From positions 1-64,000 of the forward strand of contig JALXCV010000055.1 in the NCBI GenBank assembly GCA_026990765.1: a stretch of 64,000 nt of DNA, in the 5' to 3' direction. The stretch is from Hyphomicrobiales bacterium (GTDB lineage Bacteria > Pseudomonadota > Alphaproteobacteria > Rhizobiales > Aestuariivirgaceae). Made by a program: the position numbers and the translations under genes. Numbering within the stretch: position 1 is the first letter of the stretch; the number at the start of each line of letters is the position of its first letter. The notes below the pieces were generated by a model. It saw nothing but the letters and a program-made list of their open reading frames with translations, searched no databases and was not told the DNA's origin. This document shows positions 12,829-19,435 of this stretch, piece by piece.

Positions 12829-13917
12829 ATGATCGAAACCAAAAAACTGGACGCGGAAATCGAAAAAACCCGCGGCATGATTTATGAGATGCGTGACAAG
12901 ATTCACAAGAGCAGTGATATCATGGAGCGGATAAAGGATGGCACCAAAGTAGGTGATCTGGATTTCGATATTGAAAATGCCCGGATTGAAGATGTTCTCA
13001 AACAGCAAAAGGTGATGGAAGCCAATATTGCCGATCTGATAATCGGACTGGAAGATGTGACCAATTCTTTCGGGGCCGAGTTCAAGGACATGCAGGAATT
13101 TTCGTTTTCGGAAAAACTGGTCGGCATTTTTTCGCGCTCCAAGGCCAAGGCAATGCGCACCGAGCGGGTGCGAACCACCTCGCTGGCTGGTAATCTGCAG
13201 GATCTGCTGGCCAAGTCTGACACTATTACAACTATTCTGAAAGACCAGAAAAAGGTGCTGGAAGAGCGCTATGAGAATTCAGAAAATTCCCTGAAAAGTG
13301 TTATCAAGCAGCGCGAGGATGTAACTGCTGAATTAAAAGCGGTACAGGCAAGGATCGAGGAACTCAATCCGCTATTGCTGGATATGGAAAACCAGATGGC
13401 GGCATCTACTGATCAGGCAACGCGCACCAAACTTGAAGCCGAGCGGTCTGAACTGGCAACGGAGTATAATCAGGCACAGGCCAAGGAACAGGAACTGCTG
13501 GCCGGGTCGCAAACACTGGAGCGTTATACATCGATGTTCCAGACCTTTGTTGACAGTCTGAATAACCAGATTGCGGCGCAAAGCACGCTGATCAACAAAT
13601 TGTCGATAGATACTGAACAGCGCATTGTCTTGTACAAGTCTTTGGAAGATTCGCTCAAAACCGCAGCCCAGCAGGATGTAGCCCACAAGATCAATACGCT
13701 TGGCACCAAGGTTGATAGTGCAGCTGAAGAAACCATGGCCGGGATCGGGGCGGCGGCGCAAAAGCACATTGCCGATCTATTGGAACTGCATGAAAGCAAT
13801 ATGGTAACCACAGCAGATATTCAGCGGCGCAAGAAACTGGCTGATGATGCCTTTGCCCGGCGATTTGCCGAGGTGATGAAAAAACATGAAGCATCAAATT
13901 ACGCTTCTGGCCGGTAA
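12829..13917 (+). CDS. coiled-coil protein of unknown function (weak TelA-like resemblance)
   Basis: 362 aa, mostly Glu/Lys/Gln-rich heptad-like helix; its stop overlaps the next ATG (taATGa). Confidence 0.8.
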   Translation: MIETKKLDAEIEKTRGMIYEMRDKIHKSSDIMERIKDGTKVGDLDFDIENARIEDVLKQQKVMEANIADLIIGLEDVTNSFGAEFKDMQEFSFSEKLVGIFSRSKAKAMRTERVRTTSLAGNLQDLLAKSDTITTILKDQKKVLEERYENSENSLKSVIKQREDVTAELKAVQARIEELNPLLLDMENQMAASTDQATRTKLEAERSELATEYNQAQAKEQELLAGSQTLERYTSMFQTFVDSLNNQIAAQSTLINKLSIDTEQRIVLYKSLEDSLKTAAQQDVAHKINTLGTKVDSAAEETMAGIGAAAQKHIADLLELHESNMVTTADIQRRKKLADDAFARRFAEVMKKHEASNYASGR

Positions 13918-15062
13918 TGACTTCACCTCAGAAAAAAGCCGAACCGTATTTTCAGGCGGTTGATCTGGCATTTGATGCGCTGGACCGGATTTTCCAGTCT
14001 GAAGGTATCTGGGTGAAGCAGCATAATCTGATCTATGATGTGGTCAATCAGCATCTGGAGGGTTTGCGGCAGGCTTTTGAGTGCTGGCGTTCTGCGGTGT
14101 GGTTTACAGACCGGTTCCGCATTGATCTGGATGATTCCGGCCTGCCGGTTTATCAGCATATATTGCAATTGCAGAATGATTTTAACCGCCGCCGGGAAAT
14201 GCTGGATGAATTGCCGGACCGCGAGCAGATCAAGAATGAAATGGCTGAGTTGCTGCTGAAATACAAGCAGTTTCCCGATAGTTTGCAAAAGACCATGGGG
14301 GAGCGTTTATATTTTGAAGCAATGGACAATCAGGAAATCTACAAACCGTTTACCCCGCCTGTTACAGTGAAACATTCATATAATCCGCGCTCCAAACGTC
14401 CTTTTTACGTTGTGCACTGGGCTTCATATGATGGCAGCGCCAATCTGCCGGTGGTTTATGTGGCGGTGATTGAAGATTCATCTGATGAAGCGCCAAAGCC
14501 GCAAAAGAAACGTACTGGCCCGTGGGGTGAAACCGGTGGTGATGAATGGCTTGGGCAGGGTCTGCCAAACCGGACCCTTTCAGATGCTTTCAGGTTTTTT
14601 GCCCAGGAAAACAGCCAGTATTCACTGACACTTACATCCATTGCCACATCCATGGACCGCGATTTTCCAACCCTGCATCCAAAACAGCTGCGCCGGTTTG
14701 TACTGGGGCCATTATATGTTGGCGGTGTTACCCGTCATAATGAAAAGGTGCAGGGATTGCTGGATTCGGTCAGGAATGATGATGATAACTGGGTATTGAC
14801 CTGGACGTTGCAGGAATTGTTCTCAAAAGAAGAAGTGTCGTCGAAAAAGGGTATCTGGGGATCGGCGGTTCCCAAGGAAATCTACCATATCAACACCGAT
14901 GATATTGATTGTGCCAGAAATGGTGTCAGTGCCCAGGAAAAGCACGCGCTTATTCCTCATGTCGCCTATCAAAAGGCCTATGCGCAAGGCCGGGTGGATG
15001 AGATTTTTGACGGCTATCAATGTTACATTGCCAGCGGCAGCCAGATTATTCGCCATGTTTGA
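13917..15062 (+). CDS. hypothetical protein, operon gene 2
   Basis: 381-aa ORF translationally coupled to the previous gene; no family recognised. Confidence 0.85.
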   Translation: MTSPQKKAEPYFQAVDLAFDALDRIFQSEGIWVKQHNLIYDVVNQHLEGLRQAFECWRSAVWFTDRFRIDLDDSGLPVYQHILQLQNDFNRRREMLDELPDREQIKNEMAELLLKYKQFPDSLQKTMGERLYFEAMDNQEIYKPFTPPVTVKHSYNPRSKRPFYVVHWASYDGSANLPVVYVAVIEDSSDEAPKPQKKRTGPWGETGGDEWLGQGLPNRTLSDAFRFFAQENSQYSLTLTSIATSMDRDFPTLHPKQLRRFVLGPLYVGGVTRHNEKVQGLLDSVRNDDDNWVLTWTLQELFSKEEVSSKKGIWGSAVPKEIYHINTDDIDCARNGVSAQEKHALIPHVAYQKAYAQGRVDEIFDGYQCYIASGSQIIRHV

Positions 15063-15088
15063 TTTTATGTAATTTATGGAACCGATAG

Positions 15089-17002
15089 ATGGATACAGGA
15101 CTGACTACTCTCAATGAAAAGGAAATAGCGGCGCATTTAAGTGTAGCGCAATCGCTGATTGAGCGGGCCAGTGTGGTGATAAAGGACAGATCGGGCAAGT
15201 CCAGTACCGAACTGGCCGGGACTCACAGGCGGTTTGTGTCAACGGTTTCAACACGCGGGTCTGAAAGCACCAGGCTGGTGAAAATCACTGAAACCGTGCA
15301 GGCACTCAATCCGCAGGACAATATGCTGTCACCGGCCCAGCACGGGCTGTTATTCCGGTTGCGACGTGGTATTCAGGTGGCGCTTGCGGTGCATGATCTG
15401 TTTGCTAGGCAATCAGAACTGGAATCGCTGGCTCTGGAGAACCGATCTGTTGCCCTGAGCGGTGACAAGGCGGCACGGTTTCACCGTTTGCTGGCGGCTG
15501 GAGCCTTTGTTACCAGTTTCACCCTTGCCAGCTTTATCAATCAGTCTTTTGAAACCAGTGATGATGTAACCGGAGACCTGCCTGAACCGGTATTCTCATT
15601 TGAATCACCGCATGAAGCTGTAAAGCATATCATTATGGGGCTGGATGAGGCGATAAGTGAAGCGCGAGATGACAGTCAGTTGATAGCACGGACCAAGGCA
15701 TTTGCCCGGCTGTGTCTTGACGGGCTGGTGCAGCGCCGGGCCAGATTTGATGAACTGGAAGGGTTTGAGCAGAACCATATCAGGCTTGATGCCGATGATT
15801 TTGAACTGAACGGCTTTGATATACGCGATCGTGGCCGTCGCAAGCCGCTGATCATGAATTTCAAAAAGCCCAATGAGGTGGTGGGCAACCATATTGCCAA
15901 ATATCAGGCGATCAAGCTGGCCAAAATGCTGATGGCCTATGATTTTGACAGGCAGCTAAATCCGTTTGTCGAACTGGGCGGCTTTATCTTTACCTTTATC
16001 GGGGATGGTTTTCCAGGTACGGGCAAGACAACCCTCATTCAGATGATTGCCGGGCTGATCAATGATTATTGCAATGTTGCCGGCTATAGTTTCCATTATG
16101 AAAATTTCGGGGTGGACCAGATTTCGTCCTATCAGGGTAAATCCGGTCAGAACTGCAAGCAGTTCATTACCAATGTGCTGGATACAAGGGTTATCGGTTT
16201 TGGCACGGTTGATGATATTGACCAGATTGCCGCCAAACGTTCTGATGAGCGGGCATCGGCTGGCCAGCAGGAAATAACTGCGGTGCTGATGGAAGGTTTT
16301 TCCGGGGCCAATACGGTTATTCGCGGTAATTGTTCATTCGGCATGTTTTCCAACTATCCTGAAAATGTTGACGATGCGCTGCGCCAGAGGGCCGGGGCGC
16401 GCTGGCTGGTTGATGGGCCGCAAACTGAAGATGATTATATTGATATTTTTGCGTTATTGCTGGGCAAGAATCACAATATTGCGCTTGGTGATCATGATCT
16501 TTATGCCGCCCAGGCGATCAAACAGGCGGTAAGGTCGGCCTATGACAGGCATTCACTGCCGCAGGAAGAAAACCTGCTCAGGGTTTATGAGAAGGTTGCC
16601 AAAGCCAATGGCGAGATGAAGACGCTGGCTGATATTGGCATGTATCTGCATGCGATCAAACAGGCTGAACCGCGATTTACCGGCCGGGCAATCAAGAATA
16701 TTACTGATGCGGTGAAAATGCGGGCTATGGATATTGATCTTCCCGATGAGTGGTTTGAAAATCCTGAAAGCTTTATGCACAAGTCCTATGATGAAAAATA
16801 TGCGATGATCAATGAAATGCGTACACCGATTACCATGGATATGATCGTGCAGGAAGTTAACCGCTATGCTGATTCAGAATTTCGTTATACTGACAAGTCT
16901 GATGCGGCGGCTGTAGATAATATAATCCGTGATCAGCGGGTGCGTGAGCGGGCGATTGAAGAAATCAGCGAGATGAAAGAAAAGGGTACATGGAACGCAT
17001 AA
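15089..17002 (+). CDS. AAA+ ATPase
   Basis: Walker A GDGFPGTGKTTLIQMI; Walker B-like RVIGFGTVDDID; conserved DDALRQRAGARW arginine region. Confidence 0.9.
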   Translation: MDTGLTTLNEKEIAAHLSVAQSLIERASVVIKDRSGKSSTELAGTHRRFVSTVSTRGSESTRLVKITETVQALNPQDNMLSPAQHGLLFRLRRGIQVALAVHDLFARQSELESLALENRSVALSGDKAARFHRLLAAGAFVTSFTLASFINQSFETSDDVTGDLPEPVFSFESPHEAVKHIIMGLDEAISEARDDSQLIARTKAFARLCLDGLVQRRARFDELEGFEQNHIRLDADDFELNGFDIRDRGRRKPLIMNFKKPNEVVGNHIAKYQAIKLAKMLMAYDFDRQLNPFVELGGFIFTFIGDGFPGTGKTTLIQMIAGLINDYCNVAGYSFHYENFGVDQISSYQGKSGQNCKQFITNVLDTRVIGFGTVDDIDQIAAKRSDERASAGQQEITAVLMEGFSGANTVIRGNCSFGMFSNYPENVDDALRQRAGARWLVDGPQTEDDYIDIFALLLGKNHNIALGDHDLYAAQAIKQAVRSAYDRHSLPQEENLLRVYEKVAKANGEMKTLADIGMYLHAIKQAEPRFTGRAIKNITDAVKMRAMDIDLPDEWFENPESFMHKSYDEKYAMINEMRTPITMDMIVQEVNRYADSEFRYTDKSDAAAVDNIIRDQRVRERAIEEISEMKEKGTWNA

Positions 17003-18297
17003 TCGATAATGCACTGATCGACAATGCGCTGATCTATGGCGCCATGTTTCGGGTTGATGAACCTCATCTGGTTGATCGCTATAACCGGGCGCTGCAGGGT
17101 TTTGGGCTGCCACCCACCAGTCTGGAAACATTCATTATTGATGCCATGGGTTATTCGCCCGATATTGCCAAGGAGTTTGGTGATAAAAACTATCTTGATC
17201 CCAATGAAATAAATCCGCGGTTCATTATCCTGTCACCTGAACAGGAGGATCTGCCGGTCATTTCGACCAGTTTTACCTCAACGGCTGATCTGATGAAGGC
17301 GTTTTTTGTCAAGAATGCTGAAAGCCTGAATACTCTTACCCTGAAAGATGTGGTGTTTGGCGAGATTGAGGATTCAACTTACCGGATTGATTCAATCGAA
17401 GATATTTTATCGATTAAAAAGGTTCATTTTAAAATCCGCACATCAGGTGAATTGTTTTCGCGGGCGCGCGAGCTGAAAAAAATGGTCAACCGGTTTTATG
17501 CCGAGGATGATTCATGGCGCAATGACAGATTGATGGATGATATTTTGCGATCAGCCAGGCTGGTTGGTGATATCAGGTTCAATAATATTATCCCGCGCTA
17601 TACCGAGTTTGAACTGCCCTCATTCTGGACCAGTCACTTTGGCGGCCTGTATGTGTTTCATGATGAAGATGGGGTGGCAACGCTAATCGGTGAAGAACAG
17701 GACCCTGAATTTATAAAGGGGTTTCAGAATGAACTGCATTATATCTGGCGCCTTGATTATGATTCTGTGTACCAGTTTTTAACCGATACTGGCCGGATCA
17801 GCGGATTTGAACCGGGATGGCTGGAAGTCTCCGGGCTGGTGGAGCGACGTATTGAGCTTTATGTGAGCCAGAAAATATCTGAAAGTAATACCGATACTGA
17901 TTTGCGCCGGTTAAGCCCGGATGCAATGCAGAACTGGATACATCGCAATTATGATGATCTGGCCAGTGACGGGGTGTTCTCGTTTTTGATGCGGGTGCGC
18001 AAGGCACTGGTGAATGGCCGGATGCCGGTGATCAGAAAGTCTGATGCTGAAATGAAATTGCTGATTGTGCGCGCTGGCCCTGAACATCCCGACAGGGCAC
18101 TGGTGGCGCGGCTATTATCGAGCTATTCCAGATTTGACTTCCTTAACCGGTTTGCTGTCAACAAGCCGGGTTTTTATGAAGATTATGCCAGGTTCCCTGA
18201 AAACCTGAAACAATTTGCAATTCAAAAAATAACCCGCAGCTATTTCTCCAATGCTGACAGATATTGGGAAAAGCTGCTGGATACAAGAAAGGACTGA
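16990..18297 (+). CDS. DUF6638-like protein
   Basis: 435 aa, overlaps the ATPase gene by 13 nt; LIYGAMFRVDEPHLVDRYNRALQGFG and INPRFIILSPEQ resemble DUF6638 proteins (from memory). Confidence 0.75.
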   Translation: MERIIDNALIDNALIYGAMFRVDEPHLVDRYNRALQGFGLPPTSLETFIIDAMGYSPDIAKEFGDKNYLDPNEINPRFIILSPEQEDLPVISTSFTSTADLMKAFFVKNAESLNTLTLKDVVFGEIEDSTYRIDSIEDILSIKKVHFKIRTSGELFSRARELKKMVNRFYAEDDSWRNDRLMDDILRSARLVGDIRFNNIIPRYTEFELPSFWTSHFGGLYVFHDEDGVATLIGEEQDPEFIKGFQNELHYIWRLDYDSVYQFLTDTGRISGFEPGWLEVSGLVERRIELYVSQKISESNTDTDLRRLSPDAMQNWIHRNYDDLASDGVFSFLMRVRKALVNGRMPVIRKSDAEMKLLIVRAGPEHPDRALVARLLSSYSRFDFLNRFAVNKPGFYEDYARFPENLKQFAIQKITRSYFSNADRYWEKLLDTRKD

Positions 18298-18300
18298 TAT

Positions 18301-19435
18301 GTTTGATCCTTTGATTGAATGGATAAAAAAGTTGTGGCACCTGTTTGTTGTATCAGTGAAACGGCTGATCAAATGGGTGCTGGCGCCTTTTGTCTATATT
18401 TACACACTGTATAAAACCTCCGGCTGGATAATCCGTATTGTGCTGCTGGTTGCGGTGATACCTTTAATTGTTTCTTATCTGTGGCTGTTCTGGAATGCGG
18501 CCTGGATCAGGGATTATGACACCAATTACCCAGACCGGTTTGATCTGACCCACAAGATGAGAACTGCAGATGAGCAGGTTTCTACTGAAGGTGGCGGTGA
18601 TACTACCAAAACCTGCGGCAAGTCAGCTATTGTTGAGATTGCAGCTGATTTGATTGATTTTAATGTCAATCGCAATATGTGGATGTCATCCAATCCGGTC
18701 TACAAGGCCGGGATTTTCTGGACCATTCCGTGGTCACATACATGGTTTCTGGACAACAAGGCAGCGTTTCAGCGCGGTGTGCATCAGGCGGTAAATCGAA
18801 CCCTTATTGAACTGGCAGATGCTCTGGGCAGGGTGCGCGGTACATCGCGGATCGACAAGAATCTTAAAATTGCCAAGGGCAATATCCAGTTTGACCAATA
18901 TACATGGTATATCAACCCGTTTGATGAACAGCCCTTTGGCCCGACGACCCCCAGCCCGACCTATTATCGCAAAGCCAAAAAGGCGCTTGAAGCGTTTAAT
19001 GATGCCTTGAGCAAATGCAATGCAACCTTTGATGCAAGAGCCGATAATCTGTTGCAGTTCCTTGACCGGATTGCCAAGGATACCGGTTCGACCTCGGCTG
19101 AGATCAAGGACAGGGCTGCCAATTACAATTCGGGCTGGTTCGATACCAGGGCTGATGATATTTTCTGGCATGCCAATGGTGAGCTTTATGCCTATTACGG
19201 AATTTTGAAAGCTGCCAGATCGGACTTTTCTGATGTGATTGAACAGCGTGGTCTGCAAGATTTGTGGAGCCGGATGGAAGAACATATCAAGCTGGCAATC
19301 GAGCTGGATCCAGCCATTGTATCGAACGGTCGCGAAGATGGCTGGATGATGCCGACGCATCTGACAACTATCGGGTTTTACATATTGCGGGCGCGTTCCA
19401 ATCTGGTGGAGATCAGGTCGGTGCTTGATCGTTGA
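18301..19435 (+). CDS. DUF2333 family membrane-anchored protein
   Basis: Single N-terminal TM (WIIRIVLLVAVIPLIVSYLWLFW) plus IVEIAADLIDFNVNRNMWMSSNPVYKAG...FDARADNLLQFLDRI pattern; ATG 4 nt after the upstream stop. Confidence 0.85.

Follow-up and report, generated by a model that had tools for sequence, protein, structure and literature searches.

A conserved alphaproteobacterial AAA ATPase gene cluster with an exchangeable membrane-protein gene

Five genes, here called A to E, lie in tandem on the forward (+) strand at positions 12829-19435 of the window (the whole stretch of 64,000 nucleotides that was analysed), and the coordinates of the five open reading frames were confirmed; all features given below are on the same strand. 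Gene A (12829..13917) encodes a predicted all-helical protein of 362 residues, gene B (13917..15062) a soluble protein of 381 residues, gene C (15089..17002) a classical AAA ATPase of 637 residues, gene D (16990..18297) a soluble DUF6638 protein of 435 residues, and gene E (18299..19435, from the conserved start) a DUF2333 protein of 378 residues. The first-pass annotation had described this order of a coiled-coil protein, an unknown protein, an AAA+ ATPase, a DUF6638-like protein and a DUF2333 protein, and the layout was borne out. It had also taken the close junctions as a sign of a stoichiometric complex. As annotated, genes A and B share one base, 26 nt separate B from C, and C and D overlap by 13 nt; the gap between D and E, however, is 1 nt and not 4, because the conserved start of E lies at 18299, one base past the stop of D (tgaTATG), and the start at 18251, which gives the longer E reading frame, is not conserved. 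Tight coupling is not general across relatives: C and D overlap in just 33 of 106 loci and lie at least 350 nt apart in about 40 of them, often with inserted genes. Because the C-D junction tolerates insertions, gene coupling is a weak argument for a stoichiometric complex.

The C protein matched PF00004 above cut-off (2.8e-10), and its closest solved relatives are Rpt2 and i-AAA. At the fixed positions checked (307 and 309-314), Walker A (GDGxPGTGKT, residues 305-314; 16001..16030) was kept by all 112 proteins compared. Pore loop 1 (Y348-Q349-G350; 16130..16138) and residues N422, R434 and R438 of sensor 1 and the second region of homology (16349..16402) were invariant in the same number, as were D375 and D376 of Walker B (FGT[IV]DD[IVL]D, residues 371-378; 16199..16222). 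When the register was set by alignment of C with Rpt2 (DEID), Asp376 was found to take the place of the catalytic Glu in all 112 proteins. Thus, of the classical AAA traits, Walker A, sensor 1, the second region of homology and pore loop 1 are present and the Walker B Glu is absent; because the other motifs are there, we regard the Asp as a deviation within the classical AAA clade and not as a ground for exclusion. These motifs confirm the annotation of C as an AAA ATPase and indicate a classical AAA motor with arginine fingers and an aromatic pore loop 1. In the N-terminal region of C (300 residues, 1-300) neither an MIT domain nor any other family was matched, and no membrane segment was found in C by hydropathy.

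Neither A nor B gave a convincing or above-cut-off match in Pfam, NCBIfam or PADLOC. A is predicted (AF2) to form a long helical hairpin (pLDDT 80.2; helices 119-192 and 196-294), in keeping with its description as a long coiled-coil-type protein. The predicted fold of B is confident (pLDDT 88.9, pTM 0.87) and found no match in the PDB or among viral predicted structures, one hit to a viral maturation protein fold (E 7e-4, TM 0.09) being judged spurious. D matched DUF6638 (PF20343) at 7.7e-63, with 213.3 bits against a cut-off of 27, and E matched DUF2333 (PF10095) at 1.3e-20, with 74.1 bits against a cut-off of 22, so that both annotated families hold. E carries one or more N-terminal membrane segments (hydropathy peak 2.55) and a large conserved domain, as expected of the membrane protein it had been called. 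In some relatives its place is taken by a DUF1523 protein (PF07509), here called e, and membrane segments were found in the module in E or e only. Membership of E, D and e in DUF2333, DUF6638 and DUF1523 is by Pfam score, and these families are names only. Though at least 525 relatives of C were confirmed in a scan of genome contigs, no paper on the module or on DUF6638 was found in the literature searched, where DUF2333 had one incidental mention; papers on DUF1523, judging from their titles and abstracts, are not about this module. The genes match no characterised complex, as had been supposed.

The order A-B-C-D was kept in 106 of 106 complete relatives, far beyond chance, and C and D were present in an identical set of 24 of 299 Pseudomonadota genomes. 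The next gene encodes DUF2333 in 93 of the 106 loci and DUF1523 in 13, the latter forming one clade. Taken together, these data, which answer the question of neighbourhood conservation raised by the first-pass annotation, establish that A-B-C-D is a real, widely conserved gene set that nearly always stands beside a membrane-protein gene of either the DUF2333 or the DUF1523 kind. The membrane partner was exchanged once on the C tree, after which the whole unit travelled with its new partner; in Vibrio copies, neither DUF2333 nor DUF1523 adjoins A-B-C-D. The C relatives examined come mainly from Rhizobiales, and a further clade belongs to a Rhodobacteraceae-type family. Presence is patchy between genera (16 of 90 in the order), and within Rhizobiaceae C was found in 66 of 121 genomes. 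DUF2333 itself occurs in 80 of the 299 Pseudomonadota genomes, mostly without C, and no flanking gene beyond the module was conserved in 20 loci compared.

Loss of B, C and D in place points to the partner of the motor. Three Rhizobiaceae carry A and E without B, C and D at choV-choW-choX-tdk-[A..E]..fhs loci, and these A-only loci show no remnants of the three missing genes. Compared with the S. meliloti protein, A is 22-32% identical in these loci vs 82-83% in full-cluster Mesorhizobium-type loci; for E, the corresponding values are 58-60% and 52%. Across the 121 Rhizobiaceae genomes, all 66 with C have an A of at least 500 bits, and the four with A and without C have A scores of 51-163 bits. 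One segment of A, residues 275-300 (S..T..QQ..H.I...G..D..A; 13651..13728), is conserved in 44 relatives and keeps 13 of 15 columns in the distant, AAA-linked Vibrio A; it is lost (0-1 of 15 columns) in three A proteins from loci without B-C-D, and we propose it as the contact with the B-C-D module. Since A diverged and E did not after the loss, A is probably the partner or client of the motor and E probably the membrane partner. The loss probably represents one or two events. The divergence of A may stem from loss of all function, though A is open in four genomes, and the constraint on A could come from B or D instead of C; the adjacency of E to A in A-only loci may simply be a remnant of the former gene order.

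The first-pass annotation had proposed an envelope machine loosely analogous to PspA/ESCRT-III or TelA-type systems. Its envelope part gained indirect support. In one gammaproteobacterial family, 10 of 12 genomes (7 genera) have a stand-alone DUF2333 gene 0.8-2.6 kb from a PspA gene on the same strand, which supports an envelope role; this linkage is limited to stand-alone DUF2333 in that family, and the other families sampled did not show it. The swap of the membrane partner to DUF1523 also favours such a role indirectly. The suggested kinships found no support. hhalign gave a probability of 3.4% for A against PspA (with a shallow PspA profile of 4 sequences), and PspA_IM30 and Snf7 were absent among the Pfam families listed for 16 A proteins. 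The 50 best Foldseek matches of A were generic coiled coils and helical toxins, all with E above 0.001, and no ESCRT-III or PspA name was among them; the ESCRT-III/PspA fold is an alpha1-alpha2/3 hairpin with an alpha5 domain swap, and the AF2 model of A shows a long hairpin. By these tests, A shows no homology to PspA or ESCRT-III. TelA (PF05816) was found in none of 41 genomes of the order, nor among the families listed for A.

In NSF/SNAP/SNARE, an AAA protein and its adaptors act on a coiled-coil bundle at the membrane, and the D2 domain of NSF, with a D-D Walker B, hydrolyses little ATP. C shares the D-D Walker B, but unlike NSF it has one AAA domain, and the sequence relation was compared for the AAA domain only. 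As in Vps4-ESCRT-III and archaeal CdvC-CdvB, the module combines a classical AAA protein with an aromatic-x-G pore loop, a long helical protein with a C-terminal segment that tracks the presence of the AAA protein, and a membrane link; the MIM of ESCRT-III goes with Vps4 (PMC8281802). A, however, has no sequence or significant fold match to ESCRT-III; unlike Vps4, C has the 300-residue N-terminal region in which no MIT domain was matched, and the Walker B Asp in place of Glu; and the module adds two obligate proteins, B and D, as well as a membrane protein of its own. Phage-shock envelope-stress systems include bacterial PspA with AAA+ partners (PMC11237479). The module resembles them in joining a helical cytosolic protein to membrane proteins and through the DUF2333 genes beside PspA in the one gammaproteobacterial family, but PspA is missing from the cluster and the sequence profile of A does not resemble that of PspA.

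We propose, with a probability of about 0.5, that the A, B, C and D proteins make up an obligate AAA machine of four components, which acts at the inner membrane with an exchangeable membrane partner, E or e. C would probably form an AAA ring that grips a polypeptide through its YQG pore loop, and its ATP hydrolysis is probably slow or switch-like because Walker B reads D-D and not D-E. B and D would assist the ring as accessory or adaptor proteins. A would be the partner or client of the ring, engaged at least via the conserved C-terminal stretch (275-300 and beyond), and would pair with E at the membrane. The task of the machine would be to assemble, remodel or recycle an A-E layer for envelope maintenance, with the logic of Vps4 on ESCRT-III and a non-homologous helical protein. 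Only tentatively do we go further and suggest an undescribed alphaproteobacterial machine for membrane remodelling that arrived at the ESCRT-III/Vps4 logic on its own, with a slow D-D AAA ring, two new accessory proteins (one of a new fold) and a non-homologous hairpin, A, tethered to an exchangeable inner-membrane partner. If the model is true, bacteria would have, beyond the PspA/ESCRT-III family, a second way of setting an AAA motor to work on a helical protein linked to the membrane. The loss of B-C-D with the collapse of one A segment gives a precise hypothesis for the contact of the motor, and the invariant D-D Walker B of C and the fold of B, for which no match was found, invite direct biochemical and structural work.

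A less likely explanation is that the C ring with B and D is a dedicated chaperone that builds or activates one specific cell structure or enzyme, with E/e or A as the product, much as CbbX and GvpN each serve one client, and that it does not maintain the envelope in general. The single-copy cluster with fixed partners, the swappable membrane protein and the patchy presence (16/90 genera; 66/121 Rhizobiaceae genomes) suit this idea, but no conserved enzyme or structural gene adjoins the module in the 20 loci, and the frequency of DUF2333 without C (80/299 genomes with DUF2333, mostly lacking C) suggests that DUF2333 needs no such chaperone. Anti-phage or abortive defence, in which A would be the sensor or scaffold and the AAA protein the trigger, is unlikely. 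Defence systems often combine an AAA protein with a coiled coil and unknown proteins, the distribution is patchy with whole-unit transfer, and toxin-antitoxin and nuclease genes are inserted at the C-D junction in Rhizobiaceae; these insertions, however, look like cargo in repeat-rich junctions, and the choV-fhs position is stable across several Rhizobiaceae. The best PADLOC match (1e-4, TRIP13) covered the AAA domain only, the others being weak AAA or coiled-coil matches; ten neighbouring genes had no PADLOC match, no recognisable effector was found, and C relatives were absent from phage records and IMG/VR contigs.

Slightly less probable again is Msp1-like extraction or quality control, in which the ring would pull E/e or their clients from the inner membrane. 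The threading-type pore loop of C and its near-constant pairing with a membrane protein are compatible with this, but Msp1 has a membrane segment and C has none, and after the loss of B-C-D it was A that diverged while conservation of E was unchanged, suggesting A, not E, as the partner of the motor. Very improbable, finally, is a true bacterial ESCRT-III/Vps4 pair, in which A would be a PspA/ESCRT-III homologue that has diverged and C would be a Vps4. The predicted hairpin of A, its C-terminal segment that tracks the AAA protein as MIM does with Vps4 (PMC8281802), and the PspA linkage of DUF2333 elsewhere would agree with it, but the hhalign probability, the families listed for the 16 A proteins, the 50 best fold matches and the lack of an MIT match in C all speak against it.

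A phage or prophage origin of the module was also considered and rejected on the phage and IMG/VR searches, the Vibrio C matching phages over the AAA core only. No PspA was detected in the genome of the window at E <= 0.001. The idea that PspA regularly adjoins the module was likewise set aside, since PspA was seen at a single locus (L047), behind an opposite-strand TetR-like gene, and this link was treated as weak. PspA and the module do not exclude each other, as both occur together in 4 of 11 module genomes.

The five genes lie on the same strand in the ORF reading of the window: A (12829-13917, +; a putative coiled coil), B (13917-15062, +), C (15089-17002, +), D (16990-18297, +) and E (18299-19435, +). 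The placement in the first-pass annotation agreed with ours except for the start of E, which we moved to the conserved start at 18299, 1 base past the stop of D. Pfam bore out the families it had named, with C matching AAA, D matching DUF6638 and E matching DUF2333. No family was found above the Pfam cut-off for A or B, and NCBIfam and PADLOC searches of the module gained nothing specific.

Of 150 genomes from the order, 27 carry C; of 299 from the phylum, 24 do, and DUF6638 is found in the identical 24. DUF2333 was far broader (80/299) and hence does not belong to the module alone. Among 109 relatives holding C, the order was A-B-C-D-E in 93 and A-B-C-D-e in 13, e being a membrane protein of the DUF1523 family that takes E's place; the remaining three loci were interrupted by contig ends. 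The genes, taken for one operon in the first-pass annotation, are co-conserved in all 106 complete loci, with e in place of E in the 13. Beyond the module, no neighbour gene was conserved throughout 20 loci compared. This absence and the order in relatives show that the unit is A-B-C-D plus one membrane protein.

On the tree of C, a single change suffices to explain the switch from E to e. Four loci with e (L045, L046, L047 and L196) lie outside family f60, taken to be Rhodobacteraceae, yet nest within its clade on this tree, suggesting that the whole unit was probably transferred along with its membrane gene. Translated frames of 10 e-bearing loci revealed, between D and e, a small membrane protein with two helices and about 88 residues, partial in some of them; L047 lacks it. 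Across L189-L198 this protein is conserved and has no credible Pfam family. Vibrio plasmid records carry A-B-C-D without E or e. At L219 (Vibrio vulnificus) and L221 (V. parahaemolyticus), on records of about 0.9 Mb, RNase H-like and SIMPL genes border the homologues at one end and mfd and DUF3592 genes at the opposite end.

We also compared Rhizobiaceae, where C was present in 66 of 121 genomes, all 66 with A at 500-606 bits. Four of the 121 had A without C, and A scored just 51-163 bits. Three of these four loci, analysed in full, read choV-choW-choX-tdk-A-E-...-fhs-extensin, with A-E at the position that the complete cluster occupies in Mesorhizobium-type loci and in S. meliloti Ak57, and held no remnants of B, C or D. 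Identity of A to S. meliloti A was 22-32% in these loci versus 82-83% in Mesorhizobium-type full-cluster loci, whereas that of E was 58-60% versus 52%. The A core kept about one-third to one-half of its conserved columns, and segment 275-300 (window 13651..13728, +) kept 0-1 of 15; in Vibrio, which belongs to another class and has the AAA gene, A kept 13 of 15. Because A diverged and lost this segment where B-C-D is missing and E did not, the simplest reading, which has three sequences and one or two losses behind it, is that B-C-D would constrain A, most strongly at 275-300, and leave E unconstrained. The C-terminal MIM of ESCRT-III binds Vps4 (PMC8281802), and segment 275-300 may be analogous to it.

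By its motifs, C belongs to the classical AAA proteins: across 112 of 112 C proteins there was no variation in Walker A, in the pore loop Y-Q-G-K-S or at N422, R434 and R438; aromatic-x-G is the form of pore loop 1 in AAA proteins (PMC7018516). The nearest solved relatives were Rpt2 and i-AAA, with similarity limited to the AAA domain. Walker B was F-G-T-[IV]-D-D in all 112, with aspartate at the place of the catalytic glutamate. NSF D2, which shows little hydrolysis, likewise has a D-D Walker B. We infer that C may hydrolyse ATP slowly. In Msp1, replacement of the catalytic glutamate (E214Q) abolished activity (PMC7018516).

Hydropathy analysis found no membrane segments in A, B, C or D, a hydrophobic stretch at the N-terminus of E, and one or two in e. 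The charges preceding the segment of E suggest that most of this protein is on the periplasmic side. B has a confident predicted fold (AlphaFold2, pLDDT 88.9, pTM 0.87), for which neither the PDB (best E 0.18) nor viral structure models gave a credible match. A is predicted to be all-helical with a long hairpin (AlphaFold2, pLDDT 80), and its Foldseek matches were generic coiled coils and helical toxins only, all at E > 0.001.

PspA, the ESCRT-III protein of bacteria, acts in envelope stress (PMC8281802). The first-pass annotation had drawn a loose analogy to PspA/ESCRT-III-like systems. By the sequence tests made, A is not a PspA protein, and no PspA gene was found at E <= 0.001 in the genome of the window. 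In the gammaproteobacterial family f78, 10 of 12 genomes, spanning 7 genera, have a stand-alone DUF2333 gene 0.8-2.6 kb downstream of PspA and on the same strand (gene positions compared by hand, neighbourhoods inspected for six); this proximity was not seen in the remaining genomes compared. The cases are L268-L273 and genomes G155, G162, G330, G356, G366, G396, G398, G414, G418 and G426; in the loci read, genes for a small membrane protein and for a protein of outer-membrane type are close by. PspA and Snf7 homologues that have AAA+ partners are described in a 2024 survey of PSP partners (PMC11237479), whose text does not name DUF2333; among the papers searched, that name occurs only in PMC5256989. 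One e-bearing locus only has a PspA-family gene (L047:5402-6115), 0.7 kb past DUF1523, beyond a TetR-like gene on the opposite strand. An orphan DUF2333 gene of the module's subfamily (L199:8211-9488), in a genome of the window's own family without A-B-C-D, adjoins trpS, a lysyl-tRNA synthetase-like gene and a YqgE-like gene.

Taken together, these genes make up a four-protein AAA module, so far undescribed, whose membrane partner can be exchanged. What is solid is the gene set and its order, the motor motifs, and how differently A and E fared once B-C-D was lost. We give about even odds that C would drive a helical protein tethered to the membrane through assembly or recycling, and that this work would serve envelope maintenance. 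The strongest rival is that the module acts as a dedicated assembly chaperone. Membrane extraction, a role in defence and true ESCRT-III kinship are each less likely.

The tight junctions of the window had been read as a sign of a stoichiometric complex, and they proved not to be general: C and D overlap in just 33 of 106 loci, and in Rhizobiaceae their junction is often expanded. It is therefore gene order and co-occurrence, rather than coupling, that must carry the argument for a common function. The C-D junction of Rhizobiaceae is an intra-operon insertion hot spot (e.g. L058, L060, L105, L109, L111, L113, L120 and L125), with inserts of repeat-rich DNA, DUF559 nucleases and ParE/HigA-like, Phd-like and PIN toxin-antitoxin genes. 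At L061 this junction contains a phospholipase-D-like gene on the opposite strand, and on S. meliloti Ak57 pSymB (L220:10100-11845) C and D are separated by an endonuclease-domain gene and an ISRm16 transposase.
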